DNA from: a virus
Virus record (IMG/VR): IMGVR_UViG_3300032954_000033
Location: 1 to 43,625 of that record
Length of the DNA: 43,625 nt
Direction: 5' to 3' (one strand)
Positions 5,186 through 41,174 of the stretch are shown here, piece by piece. The notes under the pieces are model-generated. The model had not been told where the DNA came from and made no database searches. It saw nothing but the letters and a program-made list of their open reading frames with translations. Each line of letters opens with the position of its first letter. Position 1 is the first letter of the stretch. The translations under genes and the position numbers were made by a program.

Positions 5186-5236
5186 TTGAGCCAGCCCGTC
5201 GCTAGTTCTAAAATCCAAGGGCTAAAGGGATGCAAA

Positions 5237-6703: not shown

Positions 6704-6761
6704 TTCTCCTACGAAATTCGCTGTTATCGTGGGAAGAATGCTTGAAAGGTAAAACAAGTCA

Positions 6762-7400: not shown

Positions 7401-8619
7401 CAAATTGGATAAATTGCCCGAGTTGTTTGGCTACCCCGACTCTCTTTTCTCCAAAATCGACACCCGACGGGACGTTCTCAAAGTCTCCTCGCGTGCCTCT
7501 CGTATTCCGTTGCAGATTCGCCCTGGCGCGCGTACCGGTCAGGTGAACCTCGCCGGCGGCGCTCTTGGCCGCGGTACTGCAACGCACTACGACGCTGCGA
7601 CTCTCACCCCTTTGGCTGCGCGTATCGCGATCGAAATCAACAAGGACGCGCTCGACCAGACCAACGGTGAGACGAAGGCGATCCGTAAGCTCATCGCGCT
7701 CGAAATCAAGAACGCCATGCGGGAATTCCGTGTGTTCTGGAACGGACAGCTTCAGACCGCGGGGAACAACGTCATTGCGACTACCTCCCAGGCACAGCTT
7801 GCAGCCGACGCTTCCCTTACCGTCTCGACCGCTCCATTTTTCTCACAACTCATCCGCCCGGGAATGATCCTCAACGTCTACGACACTACGATCACCATTC
7901 AGCGTGGTCAGGTGACGGTGGCGTCGGTGGATTATCCGAACAACGTCATCAACCTCTCCGGACAGATCGGTTTCGCCGTGACTTCCGGTGACGTTCTTCT
8001 TATCGAAGGCGTCGCAGGTGCGTCTCCCGCGGGGTACTTCGGTCTCCCCTACCATCACAGCGACTCCGCGACCGGAACGTGGTTGAACCTCTCTCGCGCT
8101 TCCGTCCCCGAAGTCCGCGCGAACGCCGTACATAACGGCCAGAACGCGCTCACCACCGCCCCGATTCGCCTCATTCTCAACAAGATTCTCCAGCGTGTAA
8201 ACGCCGTGAATCCGAAGCAACTTGTCGCACACTTGCATCCCGCGCAGAAGGCCGCGTATGAGGAACTGGCGATTCTCGTCTCCGAGATCCACAAGGGTTC
8301 CGGGAACGAGGCCGTGGATATGCTCTTCGGCGATCAGAAGCTCGCCGGGGTGTCCCAGATGGTTGACATCCAGGCTGCTCGTGATCGCATTGACTTTGTG
8401 AACTTCGATACTTGGGGAAAGGTCGAGTCCGCACCCATCGACTTCCTCAAGAACGAGGACGGAAGTTACTTCACGCGTCCGATCGACGCAACCACCGGCT
8501 CTCCGATCGCATCGACGTTGTTCTACGTCTACTGGTTCGGGCAGTTCTTCGTGGATAACCCGGGAGCGGTTGGTTACATTGACCAGCTTGCTATCCCCAG
8601 CGGTTACACCAACCTCTAA
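6762..8619 (+). CDS. Major capsid protein, two exons (6762-6812 joined to 7396-8619)
   Basis: Exon 1 encodes 17 residues ending QLENVR; exon 2 continues FNKLDKLPELFGYPDSLF in another frame, so splicing of 583 bases is needed to give a 424-residue protein. The body matches an HK97-fold capsid subunit by layout: an N-arm, a long helix (residues ~88-110, AIRKLIALEIKNAMREF), beta-rich domains and a C-terminal FVDNPGAVGYIDQL segment. It lies after the scaffold gene. The joined N-terminus reads smoothly as a capsid start, while an unspliced message would stop at 7398-7400. A start within exon 2 (ATG 7363) would lie in the intron and would give an unrelated N-terminus. Confidence 0.8.
6813..7395 (+). 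mobile_element. Group I intron interrupting the major capsid gene
   Basis: Five core helices can be traced by eye. P1: exon end GTCCGT (6807-6812) pairs with GCGGAC (6822-6827), leaving the U.G wobble at the splice site. P4: GCTGCG (7244-7249) pairs with CGCAGC (7272-7277). P3: CCGCA (7235-7239) pairs with TGTGG (7320-7324). P7: GACTG (7313-7317) pairs with CAGTC (7347-7351). P9: CTGCAAG and CTTGCAG close a GTGA tetraloop (7356-7373), with a second GNRA hairpin at 7379-7390. G7395 is the expected terminal G, and exon 2 resumes in phase 0 at TTT 7396. P8 and P10 were not resolved with confidence. Confidence 0.85.
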
Positions 8620-8630
8620 TGGAGACGAAC

Positions 8631-10334
8631 ATGACCAAGAAAATCCTATCCTTCGCACTTTCTCTTGCGTTGGTTCTCTCCGGTGGGTTCTTCACCGTAG
8701 CACCCGCGCAAGCTCAACAGCCCGTTCGTGCCGGCGGACAATTTGTCGCCAGCAACTACGGGAAGTGGTCCGCGACCGTGTTCAATGGTTTCACCGGAAC
8801 CGGTACGCAAACGATGTCCATGTTGTATGGATACGTGACGCTTCCTGACGGGCGCCCGTTTGTTCCCTTCAACGTCCGCACTCCTTTGTCGGTGGACACC
8901 GGGTCCAACCGTGAAACTGTGACTCCTACGGCCGTTTCCGGTTGCGCTCCGCTGAATCCCAACCAAGGCGTTTGCCAAGTTACTGCGTCGTTCTCGAACG
9001 CTCACGGTAACGGGACGCTCGTGACCTCCGGCGACGGCGGACTTCAGGAAGCCATCGAAGACGCTTCGCAGTTGGGCTCCCTATCGGCCGGCGGCGTAGT
9101 TCTAGTCGATGCTTCCTCGGGAATCACCAACGCGCAACTCGCTGCGGCGGTTCCTTGGGATAACGTATCGATTCTGGACACTCGCTTCGGGACTCCGCAG
9201 TATTGGACGCCCCTCGGCGGGTCTACGGTTCTCGCGGCTCCTGCGACTCTTACGAACTCGACGGCTGGTTTCGGCGTGAACGGCGCTAACTTTACTGGCG
9301 GCGCTTACACCGGGAACAACACTTACATCGCCTGTATCGCATATGTAGACGTAATGGGCCAAGAGGGTCCGTGTTCCGCGACCTTCACCATCGCGACTTC
9401 CGGGTCCGCCACCACCGATCAGATTGGTTTCACCGCTCCTGCGGCCTCCACCGGCGCAGTGGGGTATACCATCTACATCACTTTGAATGGCGGCTCCTAC
9501 ACCAGCGCGTACAAGGTTCCCCTCGTCACTCAGCCCTCCGCCGTCGGTGCATACCCCGCCTCGAACGGCGTCTGCACTCTGACGACTGTTGAGACCGTTA
9601 CTCCGGCGTGCGCTGTGACTAACAACACTTACGGTTCAGTTGGTTCCGGTGCTGTTGTATCGGCTCTCACGCTGAACACTTCACAGATCGAACCGCAGAC
9701 CACAGTGATTTCGACCACCTCCATCTACGTTCCTCAACCTGGAGGCAGAACGACTTACACCTTCGCTCCTGGACAACTGGCGAACGGCGCGACCATTGCT
9801 AAAGCCCTCGCCTTTTCCATCGGTGCCGCCGCCGCGACGACCGTTCCGGATGTAATCGGGACGATCAACCTCGCTCCAGGCGCCATGAACATCGTCGGAA
9901 AGACGTTGCGTGTTTGCGGTATCGCGACCACCACCGCTTCGACGGCAACTATTGTGGACATTCAGTTCCAGTGGGATGCCAACGGGCAAAACACTGCCGG
10001 GAAGGGCGTTCTTATTGGCGACCTTACAGCGACTCCTTCGGCCGCACTGGCGACCGCCGGGCACGCCACATTCTGTCAGGATTTCATGACGACTGTGACC
10101 TCCGCCTCGGCGACCGGCGGGACGATTCAGGAAGTCAACGGCTTCGGTGCTGTGGGCGGACTTACGCTCATCGGCACAGGTGCGCTCTCTGACTCCCTTG
10201 CTGGAGCTTCAGCCGGTGGTGTCGGTTCCCTCAACCTCGCGGACGCGGCTCGCATCAACGTCATCTACCTGCACACCACGGGTACTGACGGTGCGGGCTG
10301 GACGCTTCAAAACTTGACTGCACAGGTGCTCTAA
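8631..10334 (+). CDS. Secreted-type virion-position protein after the capsid gene
   Basis: GGAG (8621-8624) precedes ATG 8631; the ATG at 8619 overlapping the capsid stop lacks such a site. The 567-residue product begins with a clear Sec signal: KK, a Leu/Ala/Val-rich core, then APAQA before QQ. The rest is beta-rich, Ala/Thr/Gly/Ser-rich, with several widely spaced Cys. It includes a TSGDGGLQEAI segment resembling the start of beta-helix proteins, and a beta-sandwich-like section with YTIYITLNGGSYTSAYK. Immediate position after the capsid gene would normally suggest a decoration or head fibre protein, which is hard to reconcile with export. No enzyme motif is seen. Confidence 0.6.
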   Translation: MTKKILSFALSLALVLSGGFFTVAPAQAQQPVRAGGQFVASNYGKWSATVFNGFTGTGTQTMSMLYGYVTLPDGRPFVPFNVRTPLSVDTGSNRETVTPTAVSGCAPLNPNQGVCQVTASFSNAHGNGTLVTSGDGGLQEAIEDASQLGSLSAGGVVLVDASSGITNAQLAAAVPWDNVSILDTRFGTPQYWTPLGGSTVLAAPATLTNSTAGFGVNGANFTGGAYTGNNTYIACIAYVDVMGQEGPCSATFTIATSGSATTDQIGFTAPAASTGAVGYTIYITLNGGSYTSAYKVPLVTQPSAVGAYPASNGVCTLTTVETVTPACAVTNNTYGSVGSGAVVSALTLNTSQIEPQTTVISTTSIYVPQPGGRTTYTFAPGQLANGATIAKALAFSIGAAAATTVPDVIGTINLAPGAMNIVGKTLRVCGIATTTASTATIVDIQFQWDANGQNTAGKGVLIGDLTATPSAALATAGHATFCQDFMTTVTSASATGGTIQEVNGFGAVGGLTLIGTGALSDSLAGASAGGVGSLNLADAARINVIYLHTTGTDGAGWTLQNLTAQVL

Positions 10335-10341
10335 AACGCAC

Positions 10342-10995
10342 ATGGCAGCCATTGCCACACTTGAGGGCAGTTTTCTCCGTCTCTCGCGGGATGAGGAGAC
10401 TGCCCTTAATCTTTTGATACGCGAACTGGGTGGGGAGCACCAGGGGATGCCGTTGTTCAGACTCGAATGGGCAGCGGAGACGAACCTCGGTAGGAAAGTT
10501 CCAGTGTGCTTCCATCCAGTCCCGTTTTCTTATCACCTCCTAGTCTGGGAACCTCCCTCTCCTATGCTCACGAAGTACGCTCGGGAACTGGGAGAAGACA
10601 CCTCCAAGGGAACCTACACGTGCGTGACGCACTTCGTTGACAACGACAACCGACCGTTTCCTCCAACGAAGTTCATCATGGAACACGTTCTTCCGATCCT
10701 GAAACGCGCGCAGGAGACCGCAAAGGCTGCGCTCATTGGCGAGCGGGCGATTGTGGAAAGGAACCGTGCGAAGCGGAAGGAGGAGTTGTTGTCGGAGGAG
10801 AAGGCGAAGGAGCGGGCCTACGACAGCTACGCGGAGAGTGTTATCAACGACGCGAAGCCGGCGTTTGAAGGGAATCCCATGTCCACTTCCAAGCATTCTG
10901 CTAACATTTCCTTGTCGGACCTTCGTGGGACGAAACCGAACGTGGATGTGCCGGAGAAGTTTGATTTTACCCTTCGCAGTAAAAAGAACAGTTGA
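10342..10995 (+). CDS. Conserved hypothetical protein of the head module
   Basis: This 217-residue protein lies eight bases after the preceding stop. The first half is mixed alpha/beta with Trp and Pro (VCFHPVPFSYHLLVWEPP), and the second half is a long Lys/Glu/Arg-rich helix (residues ~115-165), likely a coiled coil. A Lys-rich C-terminus follows. No known domain is recognised. The place between capsid-type genes and the fibre cluster suggests a virion or head-completion role, inferred from context only. Confidence 0.6.
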   Translation: MAAIATLEGSFLRLSRDEETALNLLIRELGGEHQGMPLFRLEWAAETNLGRKVPVCFHPVPFSYHLLVWEPPSPMLTKYARELGEDTSKGTYTCVTHFVDNDNRPFPPTKFIMEHVLPILKRAQETAKAALIGERAIVERNRAKRKEELLSEEKAKERAYDSYAESVINDAKPAFEGNPMSTSKHSANISLSDLRGTKPNVDVPEKFDFTLRSKKNS

Positions 10996-11043
10996 GCCTC
11001 GGTCGTCGCTGTTCTGAATTTCCAGACCGCAAAGGAGAACGCC

Positions 11044-11904
11044 GTGCCTATCGCAATTCAAGTCAAAACAGCGAAACTCATTTCAGTTCACGACCAGCCG
11101 GATACGTTGCGCCTGGAGCTTCCGTCGATTACTCCCGGGACCTATTTCATCCCCGGCATCAACGCTCCGGATTCGGAGTTCAAGAAGTGCGTGTTTACTT
11201 TCCCGAATCGTCCTGCCGTGCAGTACGCGCAGAAGAAGGAACTGGACGGGAGAAAGTACGTTGAAATTGAAGTCTTCGAGGGGAAGACTCCGCAGTATGG
11301 AACGGAACTCGATCAGAAGCAGGACGAGAACGGTCGGCCAATGGAACCGCAGCTTCGTCGCGCGCTTCTTACCGTCACGGCCGAGGATATTGCAAACGAA
11401 CTTGAACGCCAGGCGAGGTACTTCGATCAGAACATCGGGATCCGCGCGATAAACGAGGATGTGAAGAGTCAGGATATTCTCGCGGCTGAGAAGGACAACA
11501 TTCAGTACCTCCGCGACATGGTTCAGACCACGACGCGTTACCTGAAGTTCGGCGCCGGGAACGCGACTTCTCAGGCTAGGGCCGCCGCGGCGCGGTTGCA
11601 CAAGCTCGGGCTCCTGAACCCTCTTCCGGAGTGGGCTTCTATCAATCCAGACGGCGGGTCCTCCGTGGATACTTTCAACTGCACCAACTGCGGTTCGGTG
11701 CTGCGGAAGGGGATCATCAAGTGCCCGAACGTCGGGTGTGGGTATGTGTACGACTGGAAGGCCGCGGTTGAGGGCGGCATGATTGCTCCGCGTGATGTGC
11801 CTCCGGTGCATCGCAGAGCAGCAGGATTGGACACGCCGAAGTCGATCATGAAGGAAGAAGTACGGCAGAAAGTCGCTGAGGATTTTAACGAAGGGCGAGT
11901 GTGA
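11044..11904 (+). CDS. Hypothetical protein with C-terminal zinc ribbon
   Basis: The 286-residue product starts at GTG 11044, behind AAAGGAG. The N-terminal half is beta-rich. The middle (residues ~115-190) is helical and Ala/Arg/Gln-rich. Cys213, Cys216, Cys227 and Cys232 form a zinc-ribbon-like CxxC-x10-CxxxxC. The product at 10342 and this one form a pair between head proteins and the fibre cluster. A metal-stabilised structural or nucleic-acid-contacting role is possible. Its stop overlaps the next start (TGATG). Confidence 0.65.
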   Translation: MPIAIQVKTAKLISVHDQPDTLRLELPSITPGTYFIPGINAPDSEFKKCVFTFPNRPAVQYAQKKELDGRKYVEIEVFEGKTPQYGTELDQKQDENGRPMEPQLRRALLTVTAEDIANELERQARYFDQNIGIRAINEDVKSQDILAAEKDNIQYLRDMVQTTTRYLKFGAGNATSQARAAAARLHKLGLLNPLPEWASINPDGGSSVDTFNCTNCGSVLRKGIIKCPNVGCGYVYDWKAAVEGGMIAPRDVPPVHRRAAGLDTPKSIMKEEVRQKVAEDFNEGRV

Positions 11905-14900
11905 TGAAACGTCTTTTTCAGCTTGCGGCGTTGTTGTTGTTTTCCGTGATTCCGGCTTTCGGGCAGAACAACGGGAGCTATCACGACATCGCGTGGAGAT
12001 TCGTGCAGGGTTTCCCGAACTTCCCGGCTCCGGGAGCTACGGTTACGGTTTGCAACTACCCCGTCACCAACGGGCAGATTCCTTGTACCAACCTCGCGCA
12101 GATTTACGGTGGGCCGACGAACTCCGTCGTGATGTCGAACCCGATAACAGCGGACGGGAATGGGAATTTCGCGTTCTGGGCGCCGCCGGGGAATTATGTT
12201 CTCACGATCACCGGTTCGGACATTGTTCCCTACGCTGAAACGATTACTCTCAGCAGCGTCAGTTCAAGCAATCCCCTTCCTATGACCATCGTGGTCCCCG
12301 CGGCGACGATGAGTTTCCCTGGTACGAACTCTGCGGCGTATTCGATTCTTCTGAATCAGAACGTAACTTCCACCTCCATCAGTGGGACACCGCAGAATGG
12401 GAACTTGATTAAGTTCCACGTCTGTCAGCCTGGGGTCGGGGGACCGTATACGTTTGCTTTTCCCTCTGGATTCCTGAATACCACAGCCATTCAGACTTCG
12501 GGATGCACAGACGAGACGTATAGCTACGATGGGAATAGCGGAAACTGGAGCCAACTGACTCAGCCTTCCGGGAGTCCCCTCGGAGTAATCAGTTTCAACT
12601 CCCGCACGGGAGCCGTCTCTCCTGCGACCAACGACTACAACTTCAATCAAATCGCCGGGACTGCCGCGGCGAACCAGGGCGGAACGGGGTCTGCGAGTCC
12701 AGCGACAAATGGTGTGGCGGTGTCGCAGGGTCCAAGCTCTCCATATCTCTTCCTATTGCCCACGAACAACGGGCAGTGCTTCATGTCTGACCCGACGAAT
12801 TACCTCATCAATCCACCGTCGTATCAAACCTGCCCTTCATCTACGGGAGGAAGCTCTGTCGGCGCGCAGGGTACGGTGAACGCGGCGGGTGCGAGTGCTG
12901 GTAGCTTCGCTCAGACCTCCATCTGGGACATCAACGGAGCGGGTGGGACGTACTTCAAGGGACTTAATCCGTATATCGATGTGACGCATCCGGCGTTTGG
13001 TGGTTACATTGGCCCGAATTACAACGCCGCAGCGACCACCTGCACGATGGCTGCGAGTTCAACGAGCGCCTCTTGTGCGTCGGCTTCGGACTTTCTTGTA
13101 GGACAAGGCATTCTTGTTCCGCACGCTGGGCCGGCTCCGGTGATTGCGACACCTCAGGCTCCGACGGTTACGCCACTATTCCAGGTGGGCTCTACCACGC
13201 GTTCTTATTGCATCGCTGACCGCGACTGGTTCGGCGGTCTGACGCCTTGCAGCGCCGTTGGCAGCACGTCCACGGCTCCCTCCTCGATGGCGCTCCAGAG
13301 CTACAGCATCGCCTCATGGAGTTGGAACTCTTCGACCAACACCATGACGATTACGACTTCCGGGAATCACAATATGCCCACGACGGCCTCCGGAATCATC
13401 AGCGAGCCCTATGCCCAAGTTGAGATTCAGGCGGGAACGTCGAGCAGCGGACTTTGTGAAGGCGCGTTTTCGTTGACTGCTGTTCCGTCTGGCACGACGC
13501 TTCAATTTCAGCGCAATGAACTGACATCGAATCCGAATTGTTCGGGCGGCACGCTGCGAATCGCTCCGATTATCATGCTGAAGTGGGATTCGCATTACAC
13601 CTATAGCGTGACAGCGGCATCTTGCTCGGCTGGGCAAGCGACGATTTCGGTTTCTCCTGTTCCGCTGGGACCAAATGGAACATGGGTGATCCCTAACAAT
13701 GTGAAGGCCATCATCTCAGGGGTTTCGGACTCTCACTACAACGGGACGCTCGGGGTTGCACCAGCCACGGGGGTGTTCACTTTCGGGCTGAATTGCTCCG
13801 GCGTCACGAACGTCGGAGCCGGGGGTACACTTTCACTCGTACCCGGAAAAGCGGTCAAGAACCATCTCGTTTATGCCTGTAACGGAGGTTCCTGCGCTCT
13901 GCCAACAAATGCGGCCAACTACTCGCTTGTCGGTGTCGAGCAGGGCAACGATGGTTACTTCCTCGACCGTGGCTGGACGGTGACTGCTGCCAACGTGGAC
14001 TTGGGCGACGCGCCCTCAACGGCTCCCACGACAGCCATCAATGAATGGCTGGATACGACGATTGCGACAGGTGGCGGGACGACTTCGCTGACGCTCGCCA
14101 ATCCTTCCACGAACGCAGTCACAAGCGTTGGCGTCTGGCACGACAACGTGCCCAATATCCTCGCAGCCTGTGCTACTCTCCCTGCGAATTCTTCGGCATC
14201 GAACGGTGGTCACATCATCGTGCCCGCGAACGGGAATCTCTACTATTTCTTCCCGATCATTGCCAACCTGGACCTTACGGGGAACTTCGGACAAACGCCC
14301 AAGAATTGCCCTGGCAATATGTCCATCGATTTCGGCTCGAATCCGTGGCTGGACGGCTCGATTTTGCTCGGCAAGGGCAACGCCCTCACAGGTGCGGTGG
14401 TTGGAGGCGGCACAAACTGCCAGTCCACGTTCTACCAGATGGGTTCGGCGCTGACGTGCATGCAGGGCAGTTCCTATCCGATGATTTATTTCGAGCCCGA
14501 GCAAGCCAGTTCCAACTTCCTAAAAGATTTGGTTGCGAATCCGCAGCAAGCCTACCAGTCGGGCCTATTCATCGATGAGCAGATGAACGGCGACGGCACC
14601 GTATCGGTACGCACCGACAACTTCCACGTCAACGGCGGGATTCACACTTATCCGTTTGTCGGGCGTGCCGGATTCGGCTGGTTCTTCAACTTCGGCGGGT
14701 TTTCCAACGGTGGCGGAAACTTCTCGGAAAGTATCGACGCGACGTTCCAACCGCTTTGCGGAATGCCGAGCTATTATCCCTTCATTGCCCCCTCGCTGCC
14801 CTACGTGCTCACGACAAATCACACGTACAGTTTCGGGACGATGAAGATTGATTCTTGCGGCCAAGCCTCGGGGAATTTTGGCAACACCACGACCTTCAAC

Positions 14901-17900
14901 GACCTGCTCACGGAGAGCAACTCCGGGCCGCCCATCAAGGTGAACCTCTACCCTTACGGATTGGCACAACTCACCATCAACTACGCTAACAACGCGGACT
15001 TGACTGGTGGTTCGTCTACGCCGTATCTCGATGTAACGAACGCCACGATCGGCAGCGCGGCATTCAACTTCATTGGCTGCGGCACTGCAGTTCAACCTCT
15101 CCTGGAAACGAATAGCGGCAACCCCTACAGCGGAATTCACCTGACGATGGGCTTGGGCTGCAACGGCGGCATCGGCTATCCTCCACTCGCGGGTGTCGTC
15201 TACGAGAATCTCTACCGCAACCAATGGAAGTGGAACGGCATGCAGTTCGCCATGACGAATGGGGGGAGACTCACCGCGGGCCAGATCACGACGCCGGCGG
15301 TCGCGCCTACGGTCACAGTCACGACATCTTGCACAGGCTTCCCACCCGCCGGAACGTATACTTACGGCGTCATAGCCTGGGACGCGACCTCGAATCCATC
15401 GGCGGGCACAGGCGGCGCAACCACAGTCGGCCCTGCGAGTACATCTGTCACGCTGAATGGCACGACTCAGTGCGCGAGCATCGCGCAGCCGACGCTGCCT
15501 ACTGGAACGGCTTACTGGGGCACCGCTCGGCTAAGTGGTCCCGGCTCGGTGGACCAGGTATTCATTTCTGGCGTGAGCAGCATCAACGCCTTCGTACCTG
15601 TCACTACGACGACCATCGTTGACCAGACGGCATTCACCGCGGGCAGCGTCCCGAGCATCAACAGCACGGGTCTACAATCGGTCAGCGCGGGGAACGTGAC
15701 GGGAAACATCCAACCGCTCACCATCAACCCGCTGACGGACAACACTGTGCCCATCGGCACGAACGCGCTGCACTTCACGAATCTGTTCCTCAACACTCGG
15801 ACGGTTGCGACACTGCCGACTGCCTCTACTAACCTTGGCGCGGTCTACGTTGTAACTGACGGCCAGAGCACGACAGACTGCGTTTCGGGTTCAGGATCTT
15901 TCCAAGCGTGGTGCCGGTCGAATGGGACTTCGTGGGGACCCGTGGGTGGCGCGGTTGGTGGATCGGTCACATCCTTCACAGCTCCTTCCGGTAGCTGGCC
16001 CACATGGCTTGTCCCCACTGTCACTAACGGAACGACAACCCCGCAACTGACCGTGGCAGCCTCGACCATCCCAGTTGGCGCTGGCGGTACAGGTGCGACA
16101 ACTCTCAGCGGCGTCATCAAGGGCAATGCTACATCGCCATTCACCGTCGCTGCGGCCGGAGACATCTCTGCTCTGTGGAGCGGGACGTGTAATAACACGA
16201 CATTCCTACGCGGCGATGGTTCTTGCCAAGCGCCTCCGGGTGGCATGGTCTATCCCAGCGGCTCAGGATTTGCCATTGTATCGGGCGGCTCCTCGTGGGG
16301 AACAACGCTTGCCGACCCGCTGACTCCAACTCACGGTGGCAGTGGCCTAAGCAATCCCGCAGCGCATTCGTTCATGGTGACTGAGGGTGTGAGCAATTAC
16401 AATCTCATTACGTCGCCCACGACCAACGGCTTCTACCAGTGCGGATTTAACGTCACAGCATCGGCGGCGGTGGACCCGACGTGTGCTCTCCCTGGTGTTC
16501 CGGTGAATCTCCTGAGCGGCAACTATTCGTTGGCTTACGGCGATCGCGCTAGTTTCCAGCGTGAATCAAGTACCACGACTTCGACATTGACGCTGCCTCA
16601 GGTGACAGGGAACACCGCATCAAACCTTCCCTTCGTCACCGCGAACTTCAACTCAGCGAACGAGACGCTGCAAGCGAATGCCGCAGATAAAATCGACGGC
16701 GGCTCGACGGGTGGAACGCAGACCGTTCTTCCTGGATGGGCGGCGTTTGTGTACCAAGATTCAACGTCCGCTCCCGGCAACTGGTGGAGTGTGCTCATGC
16801 CAATGCTGAGTGCGCTGCCTTCCTCTTGCGCGGACAGCGGTGGGAATCATATCAACTTCACGGCTTCCGCGGGATTCACCTGCGGATCGACATCGAGCGG
16901 CGGCACACCCTCGTTCCCATTGACGGTTACAGGAACGGTGAACTCGGGAGGCATCCCCTACTTCAGTAGCACAACACAGGAATCCTCGTCTGCAACACTT
17001 GGGGCTGGAGCCATCGTATTTGGTGGTGGCGCTGGTGGCGCTCCAACGACTGGCGCGGGTGACTTCACTTACTCTTCGCACACACTCTCGGGCGGCGCGT
17101 CGGCAATCTTCGACCTGAGCGCAGCGGCTTCGTTTAAGGTACCGTCGAGTGCGGCCTGCGCGCCAACAACTGCGGCGCTGCTCTGCTACGACTCCACGAA
17201 CAATCGATTCGTTGGTGGCAACGGTACGAATACTTCCTACCTCCCGTGGTTCCTTTCGGCTCCGGCCTCGCTCAACCTCGTGGAATGGAACGGCACCCTT
17301 GGCAAGCAGGACGATACGGGCATTGCCACAGCTAACGTCACGCAGACAACGGCCACTCCTTCGGCCAATCAGATTTGCGTGTACGCCTCCACGGCCAAGA
17401 CCTGCACTCCGACTACCACGTTACCAACCGCCGCAGAGCCCGCGCACACGGGCGATATGACTAACTCGGTAGGCTCGCTCGTCACTACGGTTGCGAAAAT
17501 CAATGGTGGCAGCTACCCCACGTCGGCGCATGTTGTTGGCTCAAACGGGTCCGCGCAGCCCACGACTTCCACCCGCACCGACATTGACGCTATTACCTAC
17601 GCAGCGGGTGGCGGCTCGGCCAACGCGCAGACGGTGACACTCTCTCCTGCGGTGACTTCCTACACCACAGGGCTGACCATCCGCTGGAAGCCCACGGCGG
17701 CGAACACGAACTCGACACCGACACTCTCGGTGAATGGCCTATCGGCTATTACCATCGTGAAGATTGGCGGCGCGGCGCTCTCAAACAGCGACCTCACGAC
17801 GACAGCGATAGCCACAGCTATCTATGATGGAACGAACTTCGAGCTTCAGAATCCACAAACCGGGCAGCCCGCGACGGGCACGGCTGGCGGAGACTTGACA

Positions 17901-18359
17901 GGTTCTTACCCGAATCCTACCGTCGCGGCAAACGCTATCACGGGCGCGAAGATGGCCAACAACACCGTGACAGCCACGCAACTTGCCGCGCAGTATTCCA
18001 AGGGCTCCTGCACGGAAGCCTGGGGCGGCTCGGGAACCTCGCACGCGCTCACTTCCGGCGACGATGCGGTAGTGAACAACACCTGCTACAACGACTCTGG
18101 TGTAACACGGACCATCACGGCAGTGAAGTGCCGCAGCGACAACGGCTCCAACACCACGACGGTCAATCCGACATTCGGCTCGGCGGGCACGGGCACAACG
18201 ATTCTCTCCGGGGCGCTGACCTGCGGGAATAGCTACGCCTACAGTTCCAGCGGAACGGTATCGAACGCAAGCTGGACGACGGGTACAGGCATTGACCCAG
18301 CGATGGGCGGGACGCTCACGGGTACGAGCATTGCCGTAATTATCGAGTACACATTCTGA
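11904..18359 (+). CDS. Giant fibre-like protein (2151 residues) with Sec signal peptide
   Basis: ATG 11904 overlaps the previous TGA. The start is a textbook signal peptide (KR, Leu/Ala-rich core, PAFG before Q). Residues ~20-115 form a beta domain with ADGNGNFAFWAPPGNY, shared with the product at 22810. Fibre-type elements follow: FNSRTGAVSPATNDYNF with QGGTG (residues ~225-255), a central region resembling a right-handed beta-helix (residues ~740-1110), IPVGAGGTGATTLSG with LRGDGSC (residues ~1390-1450), and a GGDLTGSYPNPTVA collar-like unit near residue 1995. Thr/Ser/Gly-rich composition and many Cys fit an oxidising compartment. It is probably a receptor-binding fibre or adhesin. Export of a tail fibre is unusual. 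Confidence 0.75.
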   Translation: MKRLFQLAALLLFSVIPAFGQNNGSYHDIAWRFVQGFPNFPAPGATVTVCNYPVTNGQIPCTNLAQIYGGPTNSVVMSNPITADGNGNFAFWAPPGNYVLTITGSDIVPYAETITLSSVSSSNPLPMTIVVPAATMSFPGTNSAAYSILLNQNVTSTSISGTPQNGNLIKFHVCQPGVGGPYTFAFPSGFLNTTAIQTSGCTDETYSYDGNSGNWSQLTQPSGSPLGVISFNSRTGAVSPATNDYNFNQIAGTAAANQGGTGSASPATNGVAVSQGPSSPYLFLLPTNNGQCFMSDPTNYLINPPSYQTCPSSTGGSSVGAQGTVNAAGASAGSFAQTSIWDINGAGGTYFKGLNPYIDVTHPAFGGYIGPNYNAAATTCTMAASSTSASCASASDFLVGQGILVPHAGPAPVIATPQAPTVTPLFQVGSTTRSYCIADRDWFGGLTPCSAVGSTSTAPSSMALQSYSIASWSWNSSTNTMTITTSGNHNMPTTASGIISEPYAQVEIQAGTSSSGLCEGAFSLTAVPSGTTLQFQRNELTSNPNCSGGTLRIAPIIMLKWDSHYTYSVTAASCSAGQATISVSPVPLGPNGTWVIPNNVKAIISGVSDSHYNGTLGVAPATGVFTFGLNCSGVTNVGAGGTLSLVPGKAVKNHLVYACNGGSCALPTNAANYSLVGVEQGNDGYFLDRGWTVTAANVDLGDAPSTAPTTAINEWLDTTIATGGGTTSLTLANPSTNAVTSVGVWHDNVPNILAACATLPANSSASNGGHIIVPANGNLYYFFPIIANLDLTGNFGQTPKNCPGNMSIDFGSNPWLDGSILLGKGNALTGAVVGGGTNCQSTFYQMGSALTCMQGSSYPMIYFEPEQASSNFLKDLVANPQQAYQSGLFIDEQMNGDGTVSVRTDNFHVNGGIHTYPFVGRAGFGWFFNFGGFSNGGGNFSESIDATFQPLCGMPSYYPFIAPSLPYVLTTNHTYSFGTMKIDSCGQASGNFGNTTTFNDLLTESNSGPPIKVNLYPYGLAQLTINYANNADLTGGSSTPYLDVTNATIGSAAFNFIGCGTAVQPLLETNSGNPYSGIHLTMGLGCNGGIGYPPLAGVVYENLYRNQWKWNGMQFAMTNGGRLTAGQITTPAVAPTVTVTTSCTGFPPAGTYTYGVIAWDATSNPSAGTGGATTVGPASTSVTLNGTTQCASIAQPTLPTGTAYWGTARLSGPGSVDQVFISGVSSINAFVPVTTTTIVDQTAFTAGSVPSINSTGLQSVSAGNVTGNIQPLTINPLTDNTVPIGTNALHFTNLFLNTRTVATLPTASTNLGAVYVVTDGQSTTDCVSGSGSFQAWCRSNGTSWGPVGGAVGGSVTSFTAPSGSWPTWLVPTVTNGTTTPQLTVAASTIPVGAGGTGATTLSGVIKGNATSPFTVAAAGDISALWSGTCNNTTFLRGDGSCQAPPGGMVYPSGSGFAIVSGGSSWGTTLADPLTPTHGGSGLSNPAAHSFMVTEGVSNYNLITSPTTNGFYQCGFNVTASAAVDPTCALPGVPVNLLSGNYSLAYGDRASFQRESSTTTSTLTLPQVTGNTASNLPFVTANFNSANETLQANAADKIDGGSTGGTQTVLPGWAAFVYQDSTSAPGNWWSVLMPMLSALPSSCADSGGNHINFTASAGFTCGSTSSGGTPSFPLTVTGTVNSGGIPYFSSTTQESSSATLGAGAIVFGGGAGGAPTTGAGDFTYSSHTLSGGASAIFDLSAAASFKVPSSAACAPTTAALLCYDSTNNRFVGGNGTNTSYLPWFLSAPASLNLVEWNGTLGKQDDTGIATANVTQTTATPSANQICVYASTAKTCTPTTTLPTAAEPAHTGDMTNSVGSLVTTVAKINGGSYPTSAHVVGSNGSAQPTTSTRTDIDAITYAAGGGSANAQTVTLSPAVTSYTTGLTIRWKPTAANTNSTPTLSVNGLSAITIVKIGGAALSNSDLTTTAIATAIYDGTNFELQNPQTGQPATGTAGGDLTGSYPNPTVAANAITGAKMANNTVTATQLAAQYSKGSCTEAWGGSGTSHALTSGDDAVVNNTCYNDSGVTRTITAVKCRSDNGSNTTTVNPTFGSAGTGTTILSGALTCGNSYAYSSSGTVSNASWTTGTGIDPAMGGTLTGTSIAVIIEYTF

Positions 18360-20509
18360 TGAAGCGACTGATTCCAATTCTCCTATGGGCTTCGGTGGTG
18401 ATGGGACAGGACCAGACTATCACCGCTTCGTTCCCCATCGCGGCGGTTGCCGCCACCCCTTTCTTCGTCAGTGCAGTATCCAAGCAGCAAGTCAATTTGG
18501 GCACGAATCCATCAGGCCAGAATTCCTGCCCCAATGACACCATCTGCACGCCCTATGCTGAGGCGCTTCTATCCGGCAATATCGCCCTGGATTTCTATGC
18601 CTACTCGAATGCCACTTCGCTGTCGCTGACAGATGCAAACGACAAAAGCGACAGCTATACCTGCGCGAACGGTTCAAAGATTACCGATGGTTCCAACTTG
18701 TGGATTGGCTATTGCCTCGCAGCCACAACGACAGCCGGAGCGCACGTCAGCAAGGTGAACTTCACGACAGGGACGACGCTCTCTACCGTGCAGCCGACTT
18801 CCTGGGGCATGACCAACGGCGTGCTTGACGGGAGCATTGGTTCTTGCACGGGAAGCGGAACGACGACCATCAACTGTGGCAGCGTGACGACAACGGTGGC
18901 CAATGACCTCATCATCGCATTCGCCTGCACCGATGCGGCCCACACGTTCACAGCGGGAAGTGGCTATACACTGGCGGCAGTAAACGCGATTCAAGGCTGC
19001 GTCAGCGAGTACAAAATTGCCAGCGGCACAGGCAGCGTCACTCCTTCCATCACCGTGGATTCCTCGACCTCCTACACGGAGATCGTGTTGGCGCTGAAGG
19101 CTAACAACCAAGGCACGCAACCCTCTGCCACGCAATATCCGAACGGGTGGGTTTCACGTATCTGCTCTGAGAATAACACGACCGGGCTTGCCACGCGCAA
19201 GGTGCAGTGTCCGAACTCGGGTAATTTCCTGCTGGCTTCGGATGCTTTCGGCGCTGGACAAACCATCAGTTCCATCACCGATGCCACCAACTCGTTCTCG
19301 CAAATTAAGTGCGGAAATTCAGGCGGGACGGATGGATGGTACGTGGGCAACGCCAGCGCCGATACTTCGGGGATAATGACCTTCAACACGAACTCCACTG
19401 GAGATGGCACCTACACCGTCTATGACGTTTCGGGCGCTCCCTCGTCGCCAAACATTTCCTGTGCTTCCTACCCGAACGGAGCGCAGAGCGCCTCTAGCAC
19501 ACTGACCGTTTGGAATAACGGGACGAGCACTTACCAGTCGAACGACACAATCAGCATCATCCCCACGCCGACTGTCGGTTTGACGTTCGCTGTCGTCAGC
19601 CAGGCGCTCAACACATCCAAAGCCGCCGCGGCTCCTTCCTCATGTATTCACGATATGGCGACCTTCGGCGGGGAAGACTTGGATGGCCCGAGCGGAACGC
19701 CAGGCGATGAAAACAACGGCTGGATGCACTGCTCGATCTCAACCGGCGACAGCACACAGTACGCTTTCAGTGTGTCTTCAACCACGGAAACTGGCAACAC
19801 GTTCTCGGGGAGCGTATTCGGCGTCTATGGTTCCGGCGCAACAGCCATCATTGACGCGGCGAATACCAAGGCTGCTTCTGGTTCGACTCTCGATTTGACC
19901 GTCCATGCGACAAAATCAGGCGCGACGGGAATGGTGGGAATTGCTCACTACAACTCGACGCAACGCACGGTTTCGAGTGTGGCGTTCTCGAACGGCAGCG
20001 GCGGAACAAGCTCATTCACTCAATGCACATCCTGCGCCGTGACAACCACCTCAAACGGGCGCTCGACCATCTGGTATAACACGAACGAGCCTTCAGGAGC
20101 CACTACCATCCACATCGTCTTCAGCGGGACAGCCACGCAACTCGATGCGGCCTATATCGAAGTCTCAAAGGGAACCGGCTCATTTGCTGAGGATGCTGGT
20201 GGCAGCGTGGCGGGGGGCACCGGAAAGTCGAGTTCCGCCTGCGCCTCCACCGGGACATTCGATTGCGGAGCGTCCGTAACGACCACCGGAACGATTGATG
20301 TTGTCGGGGCGGTATTCAACTCCACAAACACCATTACTGCCTGCCCGCAATCGGCCAATGAGTTCATCTGGGCAAGCCTCGTCTGGAACAGCGGGAATGA
20401 CGGAGGATTCTGCGCTCTGTTGACCACTTCGGCATCGGCCCACAAGCCCATCGCAACCGACGCTGGTTCCGGGTCTACCTTCAACGAATCAACGGAGTCG
20501 CTCAAATGA
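18359..20509 (+). CDS. Secreted multi-domain beta-sandwich protein
   Basis: The start codon overlaps the previous stop (TGATG). The 716-residue product has a short signal peptide (KR, IPILLWASVV, MG before Q). At least three Ser/Thr/Gly-rich beta domains follow: residues ~40-250 (ending EIVLALKANN), ~265-400, and ~410-620 (ending AAYIEVSKGTG). Each carries paired Cys. The ANDLIIAF...FTAGSGYTL...EYKIASGTGS pattern resembles Ig-like or concanavalin-like surface domains common in soil bacterial secreted proteins (from memory). It lies in a translationally coupled run of signal-peptide genes, so an adhesion or surface-coat role shared with its neighbours is likely. Confidence 0.65.
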   Translation: MKRLIPILLWASVVMGQDQTITASFPIAAVAATPFFVSAVSKQQVNLGTNPSGQNSCPNDTICTPYAEALLSGNIALDFYAYSNATSLSLTDANDKSDSYTCANGSKITDGSNLWIGYCLAATTTAGAHVSKVNFTTGTTLSTVQPTSWGMTNGVLDGSIGSCTGSGTTTINCGSVTTTVANDLIIAFACTDAAHTFTAGSGYTLAAVNAIQGCVSEYKIASGTGSVTPSITVDSSTSYTEIVLALKANNQGTQPSATQYPNGWVSRICSENNTTGLATRKVQCPNSGNFLLASDAFGAGQTISSITDATNSFSQIKCGNSGGTDGWYVGNASADTSGIMTFNTNSTGDGTYTVYDVSGAPSSPNISCASYPNGAQSASSTLTVWNNGTSTYQSNDTISIIPTPTVGLTFAVVSQALNTSKAAAAPSSCIHDMATFGGEDLDGPSGTPGDENNGWMHCSISTGDSTQYAFSVSSTTETGNTFSGSVFGVYGSGATAIIDAANTKAASGSTLDLTVHATKSGATGMVGIAHYNSTQRTVSSVAFSNGSGGTSSFTQCTSCAVTTTSNGRSTIWYNTNEPSGATTIHIVFSGTATQLDAAYIEVSKGTGSFAEDAGGSVAGGTGKSSSACASTGTFDCGASVTTTGTIDVVGAVFNSTNTITACPQSANEFIWASLVWNSGNDGGFCALLTTSASAHKPIATDAGSGSTFNESTESLK

Positions 20510-22356
20510 AAAAGACATTCCTACTTTTCCTGCTCTGGGCGGCTCCGATTTTCGCGCAGCATACCTACTACATTTCCAAAACGAACGGGCTGGACACGCG
20601 GACGAGCACACAGGCGCAGTCCAAAGCCACCCCGTGGGCGCATCTGCCCGGCATGGCTGGGTGTACTTCAAATTGTGCATCCTATTCGCCCGTTGCCGGG
20701 GATCAGTTCATTCTCTACGGCGGCGATACGTGGGTTGCGGCGGATTTAGGAATAAACTGGACGTGGGCCGGAACAAGCGGCTCGCCTATTTACATCGGCG
20801 TGGACCAGACGTGGTACACGGGCGGCTCATGGGCACGTCCTAAGTTCGATTGCCAGAATACGCAGTGCTCCTCGAACCCGACTGGCAGTTTGGTCTGGCT
20901 CTCTAAAGACTGGGTGACTTTTGACAACGTGGAATTTGTCAATTTTCGGCAGACAACTGGCGGAATAAATCTCGTAGGCACTTATGGAACGAGCGATGAA
21001 GTAGAGCATTGCTACTTCCACGGGTGGTCCGCTACGGGTGGTCTTAGCAGCAACACTTTTGCCTTGAGCGACAACTGGACCGGGCCATCGGGAGGAGTTG
21101 GAACGAAATTCCATGACAACGTGATCGACGGCTCCGATGCCGGAGCGAATCAGGGAATTTTCGGCGGTGTTTATCACGGCTACTACGTTTACAACAACGT
21201 CATCCGGTATGTCTATAACGGGATGAATGGCAGCTTCAAATCCATCTACGGAAACCTCGTGGAACTCAATGTTGCCTCTGTTAGCGGCGACCACTGCAAC
21301 ATGATTAAAGTAGGTGGCTTGCTCGGGGGAGAACCGTCAACGCTCTGGGTCTACAACAACATCATTCGCAACGCCGGATGCAGTGGTGGGTCGAATCTCT
21401 ATGCCATCTCCGATGATTCCTGCCCGAGTTGCGTCTCCTACGTTTTCAACAACGTGGTCTATGGAAACTCTCTCAGCTTCGATCCCGCCATCACCATTGG
21501 AGGCAACACCTATAGCGGAACATACTACTACTGGAATAATACGGTGCAGTCCATCGGGGACTGCTTTTTCAACGGCAACTCTGGCAATCCCACGCAAATT
21601 GCCCACTACCAGAACAATCACTGCATCCAGCCGTCCGGCTCGGCAATCTGCGGGGGAACTTCCGGGATTCAGTGCATCAATGACGGCGGAAACCTGAAGC
21701 AAACCGACGCCCAGGCGGACGCGAATACCACGCCGCACTTTGACCAATACACGTCGAGCCAAACCTACGCCTACTCACCCGTGGCCTCAACGAACTCCAC
21801 GGTTGGCGGGGGAAACAATCTAACATCCTCATGCTCCACCGTTGGAATAGCCTTATGCAGCGACATGGCCTACGCCACCTACAACACCACGAATCATACC
21901 GTTGTGATGCGAACAGTGAATGCACGGCCTGGAAGCGGGGCGTGGGATGCGGGAGCGTATCAGTTCAGCGGAACCACGACTCCAGTAACTCCTACGTTCA
22001 CCCCAGCGAGTGGAGCCTCTTCCGCACCAATTATCGTTACCGTTTCTACTACGAGCGGAACGGTTATTTGTCACGGTACTACGAACCCTCCGGTCACAAA
22101 CGGTGCGGGAACTGGATGTACGACGGGGACGGCCATTACCACGAACTCCGGCACGAATTGTGTAGCTAGTTCGACCGTCTGTGGCGACTTCACAGTCACG
22201 ACTTCGCAGACGCAGTATGCCGTTGCTGGCCTGAACGCACAATCGGATTCAAGCGTGGCGAGCGCGGTGTACACAATCAATCCACCGGCAGTTGCACCAG
22301 GCGCCACGATCTTTGCGGGCGTCGCCATCTTAAAGGGAGAGGTGATAGTTCCATGA
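20506..22356 (+). CDS. Secreted right-handed beta-helix protein, depolymerase candidate
   Basis: The 616-residue product overlaps the previous stop by ATGA. It begins with KK and a hydrophobic core ending IFA before Q. Residues ~20-400 read as a parallel beta-helix: an opening YYISKTNGLDTRTS segment, GDQFILYGGDTW, then repeating short turns rich in N-N-x-V/I (YVYNNVIRY, WVYNNIIRN, YVFNNVVYGN, YYWNNTVQ). A C-terminal beta domain (residues ~495-600) with PTFTPASGASSAPIIVTVST is similar to chitobiase/hexosaminidase C-terminal modules. Beta-helix proteins in phages often bind or cleave polysaccharide. No catalytic residues can be assigned by eye. Confidence 0.7.
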   Translation: MKKTFLLFLLWAAPIFAQHTYYISKTNGLDTRTSTQAQSKATPWAHLPGMAGCTSNCASYSPVAGDQFILYGGDTWVAADLGINWTWAGTSGSPIYIGVDQTWYTGGSWARPKFDCQNTQCSSNPTGSLVWLSKDWVTFDNVEFVNFRQTTGGINLVGTYGTSDEVEHCYFHGWSATGGLSSNTFALSDNWTGPSGGVGTKFHDNVIDGSDAGANQGIFGGVYHGYYVYNNVIRYVYNGMNGSFKSIYGNLVELNVASVSGDHCNMIKVGGLLGGEPSTLWVYNNIIRNAGCSGGSNLYAISDDSCPSCVSYVFNNVVYGNSLSFDPAITIGGNTYSGTYYYWNNTVQSIGDCFFNGNSGNPTQIAHYQNNHCIQPSGSAICGGTSGIQCINDGGNLKQTDAQADANTTPHFDQYTSSQTYAYSPVASTNSTVGGGNNLTSSCSTVGIALCSDMAYATYNTTNHTVVMRTVNARPGSGAWDAGAYQFSGTTTPVTPTFTPASGASSAPIIVTVSTTSGTVICHGTTNPPVTNGAGTGCTTGTAITTNSGTNCVASSTVCGDFTVTTSQTQYAVAGLNAQSDSSVASAVYTINPPAVAPGATIFAGVAILKGEVIVP

Positions 22357-22760
22357 AAAAATGGCTGGCACTAATAGCGGTAGCATGTCTCTCAGGGTTC
22401 ATCGGGAGTTCCTTGTCGAGGGTCCACGCGCAGTCGGGGCAAGTTGTGTTCCTAGGAGCAGCGGCAGGAACGACACTCGCAGCCAACTGTCCTGCGGCTC
22501 CCGCCACGCCTAGTGTCTGCGTTGTCGGCTCGGCTGTGTACATCTGGCAAAGCTCCACGACGGGGTGGTTTGCCCCCCAGCCTCCCGCAGCGGGATCGAG
22601 CATCGCTTCCATTCAACTTTGTAACCTCGCTGGAGCGAATTGCGGCACCGCTCAGACTGGCCCGAACGTCGTCCTGAAAGTGCCCCAGTCGGTAGCCGTC
22701 ACCGTAGGCAACCCGAGCGTCACAGCCACGCAGGGAGCAGTAAGCGCCACGCTTCAGTAA
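22353..22760 (+). CDS. Small secreted protein
   Basis: This 135-residue protein overlaps the preceding stop by ATGA. The signal peptide has KK, a Leu/Ala/Ile core and SRVHA before Q. The mature part (~107 residues) is Ala/Val/Pro-rich with four Cys (two after the signal, two in LCNLAGANC), probably forming disulfides after export. Segments such as VYIWQSSTTGWFAPQ look like a short beta domain. It ends the coupled run that starts at 11904. No family is recognised. Confidence 0.6.
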   Translation: MKKWLALIAVACLSGFIGSSLSRVHAQSGQVVFLGAAAGTTLAANCPAAPATPSVCVVGSAVYIWQSSTTGWFAPQPPAAGSSIASIQLCNLAGANCGTAQTGPNVVLKVPQSVAVTVGNPSVTATQGAVSATLQ

Positions 22761-22809
22761 CGGAATCTCGAATTTGGCGCACTTTATTTCAAACTGGTAG
22801 ACTTCAGGT

Positions 22810-24057
22810 ATGAAGCGTTTCCTACTTACTCTTGTTTTCCTCTTCTCACTGAGCGGCGGCCTCCACGCTCAGAACGCTTACTATTCCGACCACGCTTTCC
22901 GTTACAACACCGGCTTCCCAGCGTACCCCGCAGCGAGCGCAGTAATCAGCGTTTGTCAGTTCACGGCCATCGGTCTCCCTTGCACGCCCCTCGCTCCTAT
23001 CTGCTCCGGCCCCAACGACACTCTCTGCCAGAGTCCGAATCCCTTCAACGCCGACAACAACGGGAACTTCGGCTTCTGGGCTTCTCCTGGAAATTACATC
23101 GTTACGATCACTGGAGCCAATGTAAGTGGCTACACACTCACAGTATCGATTCCCATCGGCGCGGGTTTCTCAGGAACATTCCCGGGGAACATAACATTCA
23201 GCGGGAACCTCACGTTCACCGGGACGAACACGCACTCAGGGGCGGAGACCTTCAACGGGGGTATCACGACTTCCTCTCTCACCGTTCCTTCTCTCTCTGG
23301 CTGTCTCCAGGCCGGCGCGGGAGGAGTTATCACCTCCATCGGTTCCAGTTGCGGGAGTTCCGGCGGCAGCGTCACCGTCACGGGCTCACCCTCACCGGGA
23401 AATCTTTCCATTTTCTCCAGTGGAACTTCCATCACCAACGGAGACCTCTCTGGCGACGTGTCCACCAGCGGAACCACCACCACAGTCGTCAATGCAGTCC
23501 ACGGTGTTTCTTACCCTTCCGGCCCATCAACCAACACTGTTCCCATTGTCACAGCCTCGAACTCCGTCGCCTACGTTTCTATCCCTAACTGTTCTGCGCT
23601 GGCTTACAATACCTCCACCTCTTCCTTCTCCTGCGGCAACGGAGGATCCGTTCTTCAGAGCTTCACTAATCGGAATCTAGCCTCAGCCGTTAGCGTATCC
23701 GCGGGGACTCCCACGACCATCGACGGTATTTCCGTGACCATGCCGAGCAGTGGTGGACCGTTCCGTGTGCGTGTGAACTATTGGTACTACGAGACTGGAG
23801 GAGGGAACTTCGGCTGCTGGGCTACGGACGTAATCTCGGGAATCGAAACGCATTCCTTTGCAGGGTACGGTTCCTATCCCAACAACTCGAAAGGCGGCTG
23901 CAATTCCTCTGGGTTATCCCCTGTGACCTACACCGCCGGTCAAACTGTCACTTTCCGCACAAAGATGAGCAACGGTGGCAGTGCGACGGTACAGACCACG
24001 AATCCCTACGGCAACTTTCCAAGTGCCATGCAAGTCGAAGTATTTGCGAGTAACTGA
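22810..24057 (+). CDS. Secreted fibre-like protein, paralogue of the giant protein's N-terminus
   Basis: The 415-residue product has a signal peptide (KR, LLTLVFLFSL, LHA before Q). Residues ~21-115 match the N-terminal domain of the 2151-residue protein: GFPxxPAxxA, a Cys at the same place, PCT.LA, SPNPFNADNNGNFGFWASPGNY. The middle is Thr/Ser/Gly-rich with fibre-like GNLTFTGTNTHSGAETFNGG. The C-terminal ~130 residues form a separate beta domain with FRVRVNYWYYETGGG and paired Cys. This layout (shared head, different tip) is typical of alternative fibre or adhesin modules. A short 49-base gap precedes it, with no clear Shine-Dalgarno site. Confidence 0.7.
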   Translation: MKRFLLTLVFLFSLSGGLHAQNAYYSDHAFRYNTGFPAYPAASAVISVCQFTAIGLPCTPLAPICSGPNDTLCQSPNPFNADNNGNFGFWASPGNYIVTITGANVSGYTLTVSIPIGAGFSGTFPGNITFSGNLTFTGTNTHSGAETFNGGITTSSLTVPSLSGCLQAGAGGVITSIGSSCGSSGGSVTVTGSPSPGNLSIFSSGTSITNGDLSGDVSTSGTTTTVVNAVHGVSYPSGPSTNTVPIVTASNSVAYVSIPNCSALAYNTSTSSFSCGNGGSVLQSFTNRNLASAVSVSAGTPTTIDGISVTMPSSGGPFRVRVNYWYYETGGGNFGCWATDVISGIETHSFAGYGSYPNNSKGGCNSSGLSPVTYTAGQTVTFRTKMSNGGSATVQTTNPYGNFPSAMQVEVFASN

Positions 24058-40284: not shown

Positions 40285-40599
40285 TCATTTCGCTTTCCAC
40301 TCCGTCTGGAACCTTGCAAGACGGTTGACATCTGCGAGCATCTCCTGAGGAGCGGTGATGGTGAGGAAGCCCTTGGCCTCCAACTTCGAGAGCGTGAGGT
40401 ACGCCGCCACCGCGTCGTTCTTAAATGCTTCCCCCTCGCTCTGCCACCACTTCATCGCCGCACCCTGATACCAGAGATGCGTGATAAGAAGAGTCGCCAA
40501 AGCGGAAGCCAGAGCGTTCCCAATTTCCCGCTCCAGCTTCCCGGTGGCGACTTGCTGAATGATACTGCCAATGGCCGCTATGAAATCGGCCGGGTTCAC
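40285..40599 (-). CDS. Small Ala-rich helical protein, possible membrane segment
   Basis: This 104-residue protein begins at GTG overlapping the previous stop (GTGA). Its N-terminal half has ALASALATLLITHLWYQGA, hydrophobic enough for one membrane-associated helix. The rest is charged and helical (LTLSKLEAKGFLTI). It is coupled to the beta-barrel candidate gene. Function unknown. Confidence 0.6.
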   Translation of the reverse strand: MNPADFIAAIGSIIQQVATGKLEREIGNALASALATLLITHLWYQGAAMKWWQSEGEAFKNDAVAAYLTLSKLEAKGFLTITAPQEMLADVNRLARFQTEWKAK

Positions 40600-41174
40600 T
40601 GCTTCGTCCAGAGTCCTAGCTTGATTCCTACACTAATTGTCCAGCCGTTGGAAGCGGGGTTCGGGTAGCCTAGGTTACTGGCGTACACAAACCCTCCGTC
40701 CACGAGATTAATGGAGAACTTCCCGGTGTGGGTGGGATCGTAGTTGATGCCGGCGTGGGTGAAGAAGCTCGGTTTCGTGAGGCTCGCGCCTGTCGCAGGA
40801 ACATTCCGCGCGACACCGCCCTCGAGGGCTCCGTAGAACTGGAAGGAGTTCTGAGGAAGAGTCGTCTTGGCGAAGAGCTTCGTCGGTGCCCAGGAGACCT
40901 CGGCGCCACCGTAGTAACCCTGGAAGTTATTCCCCGGAACGAGAAGCGCGTCCGTCACCGCGAGGAAGTTCGTGTTTCCGCGCGTGAGGACGGTGTAGGC
41001 TCCGTTAATGTCCGTGCCGGCGTTGTTCTCCCCGCCGATGTGCAGATTCATCGCCGAGGTCTTCACGGCGAAGATGGTGGTGATGTCGATGGGAGCAGGC
41101 GGGGTGGCGGTCTGACCGAAGCAGGTGACAGCGAGAAGCAAGGTAAGTGCAGCGAATGTTACGTACTTTCTCAT
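40596..41174 (-). CDS. Signal-peptide protein, outer-membrane beta-barrel candidate
   Basis: The ATG at 41174 sits behind AGGAGGAAAAG; a further upstream start at 41213 has no such site. The 192-residue product begins KYVTFAALTLLLAVTC then FG before Q. The mature part alternates short strands and turns: NFQGYYGGAEVSWAP, NSFQFYGALEGGVARN, FFTHAGINYDP, FSINLVDGGFVYASN and a last GWTISVGIKLGLW. This resembles a small porin-like barrel, though it lacks a terminal aromatic residue. A phage-encoded barrel could alter the host surface, for instance against reinfection. Confidence 0.6.
   Translation of the reverse strand: MRKYVTFAALTLLLAVTCFGQTATPPAPIDITTIFAVKTSAMNLHIGGENNAGTDINGAYTVLTRGNTNFLAVTDALLVPGNNFQGYYGGAEVSWAPTKLFAKTTLPQNSFQFYGALEGGVARNVPATGASLTKPSFFTHAGINYDPTHTGKFSINLVDGGFVYASNLGYPNPASNGWTISVGIKLGLWTKQ

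Follow-up and report, generated by a model that had tools for sequence, protein, structure and literature searches.

Candidate Sec-exported tailspikes, with glutamine at the predicted cleavage site, in tailed phages of Acidobacteriota

The gene run and its signal peptides

The DNA analysed here (the window: 43.6 kb of phage DNA, positions 1-43,625 of the IMG/VR virus record IMGVR_UViG_3300032954_000033) carries genes for a portal, an HK97-type capsid, two tail proteins and a PolA-type DNA polymerase; in its capsid-to-tail interval lie eight genes, six of which, encoding proteins 1 to 6 (Table 1), begin with a Sec signal peptide followed by Gln. Tailed phages normally put their virion proteins together in the cytoplasm; the properties of this run suggest that maturation of part of the virus takes place outside that compartment.

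Signal peptides were called with a scorer of the n-, h- and c-regions, combined with reading by eye and with conservation among relatives. The starts possess the features typical of Sec substrates of signal peptidase I, namely a positive n-region, a hydrophobic core and small residues at -3 and -1; residue +1 is Gln and never Cys, in the window and in the aligned homologues, so that they do not belong to the lipoprotein class. The scorer, which is blind to residue +1, called the six run genes and no others in the whole window, and Gln is at +1 in all six; on our own gene list, 6 of the 8 genes of the interval carry signals, compared with 1 of about 37 in the rest of the window (Fisher p = 2e-5). 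A further start, on the minus strand (41174), is weaker, being picked up by a looser rule only and with an uncertain cut site, and the protein that it opens probably does not belong to the fibre module; at 39373, also on the minus strand, an eighth hydrophobic start has Pro after its best cut and was left out of the count. The sequence-only reading had listed seven Sec-like starts with Gln at +1; each of these frames and starts is indeed present and reads as that of a signal peptidase I substrate. The export signals that it placed on fibre-like and beta-helix proteins of the virion gene region are supported as real and selected, and its term adhesin/depolymerase kit is a fair description. Mis-called start codons were ruled out as a cause, because Shine-Dalgarno-like stretches directly precede the signal start in many relatives, and so was contamination by host genes, since signal-bearing fibres lie between capsid and tail genes across many phages.

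The signal-bearing proteins of the window are rich in cysteine (103 of 4645 residues, 2.22%) compared with its other structural proteins (26 of 5508, 0.47%; p = 2e-15), and the number of cysteines is even in five of the six run proteins; paired cysteines in proteins of the spike slot suit life outside the cell. Pfam and PHROGs gave nothing useful for the signal-bearing proteins, and a PDB sequence search gave nothing. At the level of structure, the model of the protein-2 N-domain (predicted local distance difference test, pLDDT, 80) finds its best PDB matches in podovirus tail complexes and in the tailspike N-domains of P22 and Sf6, all of them weak; matches to P22, Sf6, Pam1 and Pan3 are numerous and likewise weak (expect value, E, >= 0.016). 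Searched by fold, the model of the protein-1 N-domain (pLDDT 85) gave no confident match, only a partial and weak likeness to phage fibres.

Table 1. Positions of the signal peptides, mature proteins and related features in the window; a slash marks the predicted cut.
Feature	Position	Strand	Remarks
Sec signal peptide, fibre/tailspike-like protein 1	8631..8714	+	MTKKILSFALSLALVLSGGFFTVAPAQA/QQ; ATG 8631, GGAG upstream; Gln at +1 in 15/15
Mature protein 1, 539 residues	8715..10334	+	AlphaFold model, pLDDT 85
Protein 1 N-domain	~8715-9209	+	Cys pair 8943-8945 and 8973-8975
Two run genes without signal peptides	10342-10995, 11044-11904	+	conserved in relative G001
Sec signal peptide, giant fibre protein 2 (2151 residues)	11904..11963	+	MKRLFQLAALLLFSVIPAFG/QN; sequence, scorer
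Mature giant fibre protein 2	11964..18359	+	42 Cys in all
Protein 2 N-terminal docking-like domain	~11964-12290	+	Cys pair 12051-12053 and 12084-12086
Sec signal peptide, protein 3	18359..18406	+	MKRLIPILLWASVVMG/QD; sequence, scorer
Mature protein 3, 700 residues, 20 Cys	18407..20509	+	no family match
Sec signal peptide, protein 4	20506..20556	+	MKKTFLLFLLWAAPIFA/QH; sequence, scorer
Mature protein 4, 599 residues, 19 Cys	20557..22356	+	beta-helix-like by eye, no Pfam match
Sec signal peptide, protein 5, 26 residues	22353..22430	+	MKKWLALIAVACLSGFIGSSLSRVHA/QS; sequence, scorer
Mature small protein 5, 109 residues, 4 Cys	22431..22760	+	Cys count
Sec signal peptide, protein 6	22810..22869	+	MKRFLLTLVFLFSLSGGLHA/QN; sequence, scorer
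Mature fibre protein 6, 395 residues, 10 Cys	22870..24057	+	N-domain common to protein 2
Protein 6 Cys pair	22954-22956 and 22981-22983	+	within the N-domain
Sec-like signal peptide, separate gene	41115..41174	-	MRKYVTFAALTLLLAVTCFG/QT; sequence, looser rule
Mature minus-strand protein, 172 residues, no Cys	40596..41114	-	outer-membrane-barrel-like by eye

Homologues in acidobacterial genomes and phages

The closest relative, a 70 kb IMG/VR contig (IMGVR_UViG_3300050821_001689), is collinear with the window and has a capsid 92% identical to that of the window; its matching interval holds five signal-like starts (MTRKLLAIL..AKA/QQ, MRRWLLLLP..QAQG/Q, MKRILLILALLLCASPTFA/T, MLQRLILLILLYPCLLQA/Q and MKKAILAFVTT..AKA/Q), most of them followed by bodies unlike those of the window. 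Among relatives of protein 1 the leaders have drifted, but the mature domain is conserved and so is the Ala-Gln junction, which is invariant in five relatives. A portal scan of genome contigs led to three Acidobacteria metagenome-assembled genomes with distant prophages, each containing a protein-1 homologue with its own signal and Ala/Gln cut, while a search with the mature protein-1 N-domain gave matches in 10 of 399 acidobacterial genomes. Every homologue has a signal, after one weak and probably false match (L032) was discarded; Gln is position 1 in 15/15 aligned sequences, at ~23-54% identity to the window, and in five of the genomes a related portal (mostly with a related capsid) lies nearby. 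The signal-peptide feature is therefore inherited and not accidental, and the hosts are Acidobacteriota. Among annotated phages, tblastn with the portal, the capsid and the fibre N-domain as queries found no relatives, and a protein-6 scan of viral contigs found none.

Two of the protein-1 N-domain homologues (L037 8706-11945, in G651:C18, and L040 7840-9993, in G002:C8) stand alone, with their signals, among cellular polysaccharide genes; they are possibly domesticated or ancestral depolymerases like WceF (see below), and it is in L040 only, and in none of the window proteins, that the Pfam family Beta_helix is found. In one prophage (L038, in G549:C2) the protein-1 N-domain occurs in three different copies, all with signals, one of which starts right where the portal gene ends; in another (L013 15937-16538) a low-complexity tandem repeat with several open frames lies between the capsid and tailspike genes.

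The N-domain common to proteins 2 and 6, which is unrelated to that of protein 1, was found at about 50 loci of the 399 genomes (E below 1e-15) and on 55 IMG/VR contigs. All 30 loci inspected show diverse hydrophobic leaders ending in Ala or Gly before Gln, and the sequence after the cut is conserved, in most cases QGSRKDD or QGVRYDN; for a few of the leaders a longer start is needed to take in positive charges. A capsid gene of the prophage lineage is present in 8 of the 10 contexts fetched (20 kb each), where capsid, fibre and tail genes follow one another in varying arrangement; no fibre gene besides these was apparent in the contexts viewed in full. Some phages have, in the same slot between tail genes, homologues with the same N-domain and without a signal, and in these Met stands where the mature Gln stands in the signal-bearing ones. 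After clustering at 85% identity, a pair of cysteines is present in 37/37 signal-bearing clusters and in 0/10 signal-less ones; the motif reads AVCTQPATTTPCSPLA in the signal-bearing L146 and AVLTQPATTQPGSPLA in its signal-less relative L188. The two forms also occur side by side: in phage L178 a row of three genes (5022-8948) encodes proteins with a common fibre N-domain, of which one has both the signal and the Cys pair and the other two have neither. A tree from an alignment stripped of the trait columns shows just two independent signal/Cys transitions, both concordant.

The feature is present in cultured phages as well, namely in the Tunturi viruses, which infect the acidobacterial genus Tunturiibacter (PMC11924767); that paper leaves signal peptides unmentioned and does not report virion proteomics. 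In the podoviruses Tunturi 1 and 2, five of the six genes of the spike cluster have signals, four of them with Gln at +1, and the products of these genes are Cys-rich (2.07% versus 0.52%); in the siphovirus Tunturi 4, signal-bearing fibre-like genes lie at 80-87 kb, at the far genome end. Tunturi 3, which has its host strain in common with Tunturi 1 and 2, has no signals on its annotated fibre genes, so that the host does not by itself account for the trait, which goes with phage lineages and gene modules. The annotated start of Tunturi 4 ORF111 (L210 4077-7172) lies downstream of a signal-bearing start.

Glutamine at +1 and known systems

The sequence-only reading had tentatively attributed the Gln at +1 to host-specific processing and had proposed a comparison with host proteins, which bears out a preference: among soluble signal calls from two acidobacterial genomes, Gln occurs at +1 more often than any other residue (19/69, 28%), against a background of ~5% in mature sequence and 1/21 at +1 in an E. 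coli control. The attribution holds in part, since a host-wide preference explains at least some of the pattern; the near-invariance of Gln in the two phage families (15/15 for protein 1 and 34/34 aligned for protein 2, the members of each being related) exceeds the host rate. The view that the Gln reflects nothing but host preference among signal peptidase substrates, with no function of its own, has about an even chance of being right and is compatible with the export proposed below; it is favoured by the acidobacterial figures and by the existence of such a rule in Bacteroidetes (PMC5837995), and it is opposed by the phage near-invariance and by the conservation of the residues after the Gln.

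In Bacteroidetes, Gln at +1 of signal peptidase I substrates becomes pyroglutamate (PMC5837995, PMC10653852). Here too Gln would be exposed at the new N-terminus of Sec substrates; however, the hosts are Acidobacteriota, a phylum unmentioned in PMC5837995 and the one in whose genomes the relatives lie, the Gln share (28% of heuristic calls in two genomes) is below the Bacteroidetes mean of 71%, and the glutaminyl cyclase family PF05096 is absent from eight acidobacterial genomes, type II (M28-type) cyclases not having been searched. An N-terminal pyroglutamate on the cut phage proteins is thus a guess. Five Q-rule genes of a Porphyromonas gingivalis phage, whose function is unknown and which have been discussed as modifiers of the host surface (PMC10367356), similarly encode Sec substrates with Gln at +1 but are not discussed as fibres.

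As for the proteins themselves, they resemble the tailspikes of P22-like podoviruses in being large, multi-domain products of the tail gene region with an N-terminal domain that may be of the docking kind, possible beta-helix bodies in relatives and a weak likeness of fold, and differ in having no sequence-family match; the known P22-like tailspikes are produced and assembled within the cytoplasm and are not known to carry signal peptides. Coat proteins of filamentous phages do carry Sec signals, as do the structural proteins described here, but those phages are membrane-extruded and contain single-stranded DNA, unlike a tailed phage with a portal and an HK97-type capsid. WceF of Pantoea stewartii (PMC7949094) is an exported protein of tailspike fold which acts on exopolysaccharide; unlike the window genes, which lie in a phage structural region, it is a cellular gene with a twin-arginine (Tat) signal and no phage context, and, of the homologues, only L037 and L040 are found in polysaccharide clusters. 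No precedent for Sec-exported tailspikes was found in the open-licence literature searched.

A proposed maturation route and its alternatives

Export of the run proteins, as predicted from their leaders, is strongly supported by sequence. Export, cutting before Gln and folding with disulfides would best account for the data because the leaders are conserved with a fixed cut, because the mature N-terminus is the same as that of signal-less fibres and because the Cys pairs track the leader; joining to virions is suggested by the gene slot, by homology to signal-less fibres and by the weak likeness to docking domains. The run may accordingly be regarded as the candidate adsorption machinery of a podovirus of Acidobacteriota, comprising tailspikes, fibres and their small partners. 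Each of its proteins would carry a Sec signal peptide through which it reaches the periplasm; signal peptidase I would remove the leader ahead of Gln, and disulfide bonds would form as the protein folds. The mature spikes would then dock, via the new N-terminal domain, on virion tails at lysis or on released virions, and the spike step would thus take place outside the cytoplasm. That the proteins are in fact exported, cut, disulfide-bonded and docked on virions, and that the phage gains by it, is what we infer. We give somewhat better than an even chance to the explanation that these are tailspikes which, once exported, cleaved and disulfide-bonded, are added to virions in the periplasm or at lysis; more tentatively, and at slightly less than even chance, it is proposed that a class of tailed phages of Acidobacteriota finishes its virions outside the cytoplasm, with spikes that are Sec-exported, cut before Gln, disulfide-locked in the periplasm and fitted at or after lysis. 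The literature searched contains no description of such a morphogenesis route in tailed phages.

Several points weigh against this proposal. The docking-fold matches are weak (E 0.016 to 0.4, template-modelling score ~0.45-0.5); no outer-membrane exit signal was found; and, as the tree contains two transitions only, a kinship-corrected significance cannot be claimed for the signal/Cys coupling. In L178 it could be the short signal-less copies that go into the virion, with the signal-bearing one acting as a free protein, and the two N-domain homologues in cellular polysaccharide clusters make a free secreted role possible.

The main rival, indeed, is that the exported proteins never join virions and are secreted polysaccharide depolymerases, adhesins or decoys, produced late in infection or by lysogens, which would clear exopolysaccharide, free the progeny or block competitors. 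The export signals would be equally real in this case, homologues with the same N-domain do lie in host polysaccharide clusters (G651:C18 and G002:C8), WceF offers a cellular exopolysaccharide enzyme of tailspike fold with a Tat signal (PMC7949094), and the signal-bearing genes of Tunturi 4 are at the far genome end; this alternative is nevertheless judged rather unlikely, in that signal-bearing proteins fill the sole evident fibre or spike slot in several prophages, signal-less fibres of related phages carry the same N-domain in the same slot, and the fold shows its weak likeness to tailspike docking domains. That the hydrophobic N-terminus is instead kept and used in the cytoplasm or membrane, as a tail anchor or to hold assembly at the membrane, its Sec likeness being incidental, would agree with the usual cytoplasmic assembly of tailed-phage virion proteins but is very improbable, the leaders being diverse and the cut after Ala, Gly or Ser and before Gln fixed, the signal-less homologues starting exactly at the cut and the Cys pairs tracking the leader.

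Tailed phages are taught as cytoplasmic assemblies; if the spikes do mature by the exported route, a whole group of phages of soil bacteria would have a second assembly compartment and would make use of host disulfide chemistry, and their virions could take up spikes produced by other phages. This can be tested directly in culture, since Tunturi 1, 2 and 4 have the feature and Tunturi 3, on the host strain of Tunturi 1 and 2, is without it.

Some minor observations concern other genes of the window. The minus-strand gene at 40596-41174, whose product is without a family match, adjoins a possible holin-like gene. The capsid gene is interrupted after ~15-20 codons by a LAGLIDADG endonuclease insert (6762-7420), which scores weakly as a group I intron in Rfam (14.8 bits, E 0.38), while in relative G001 the capsid gene is uninterrupted; within the structural region there are also two endonuclease VII (PF02945) genes, at 4730-5185 and 25516-25986.

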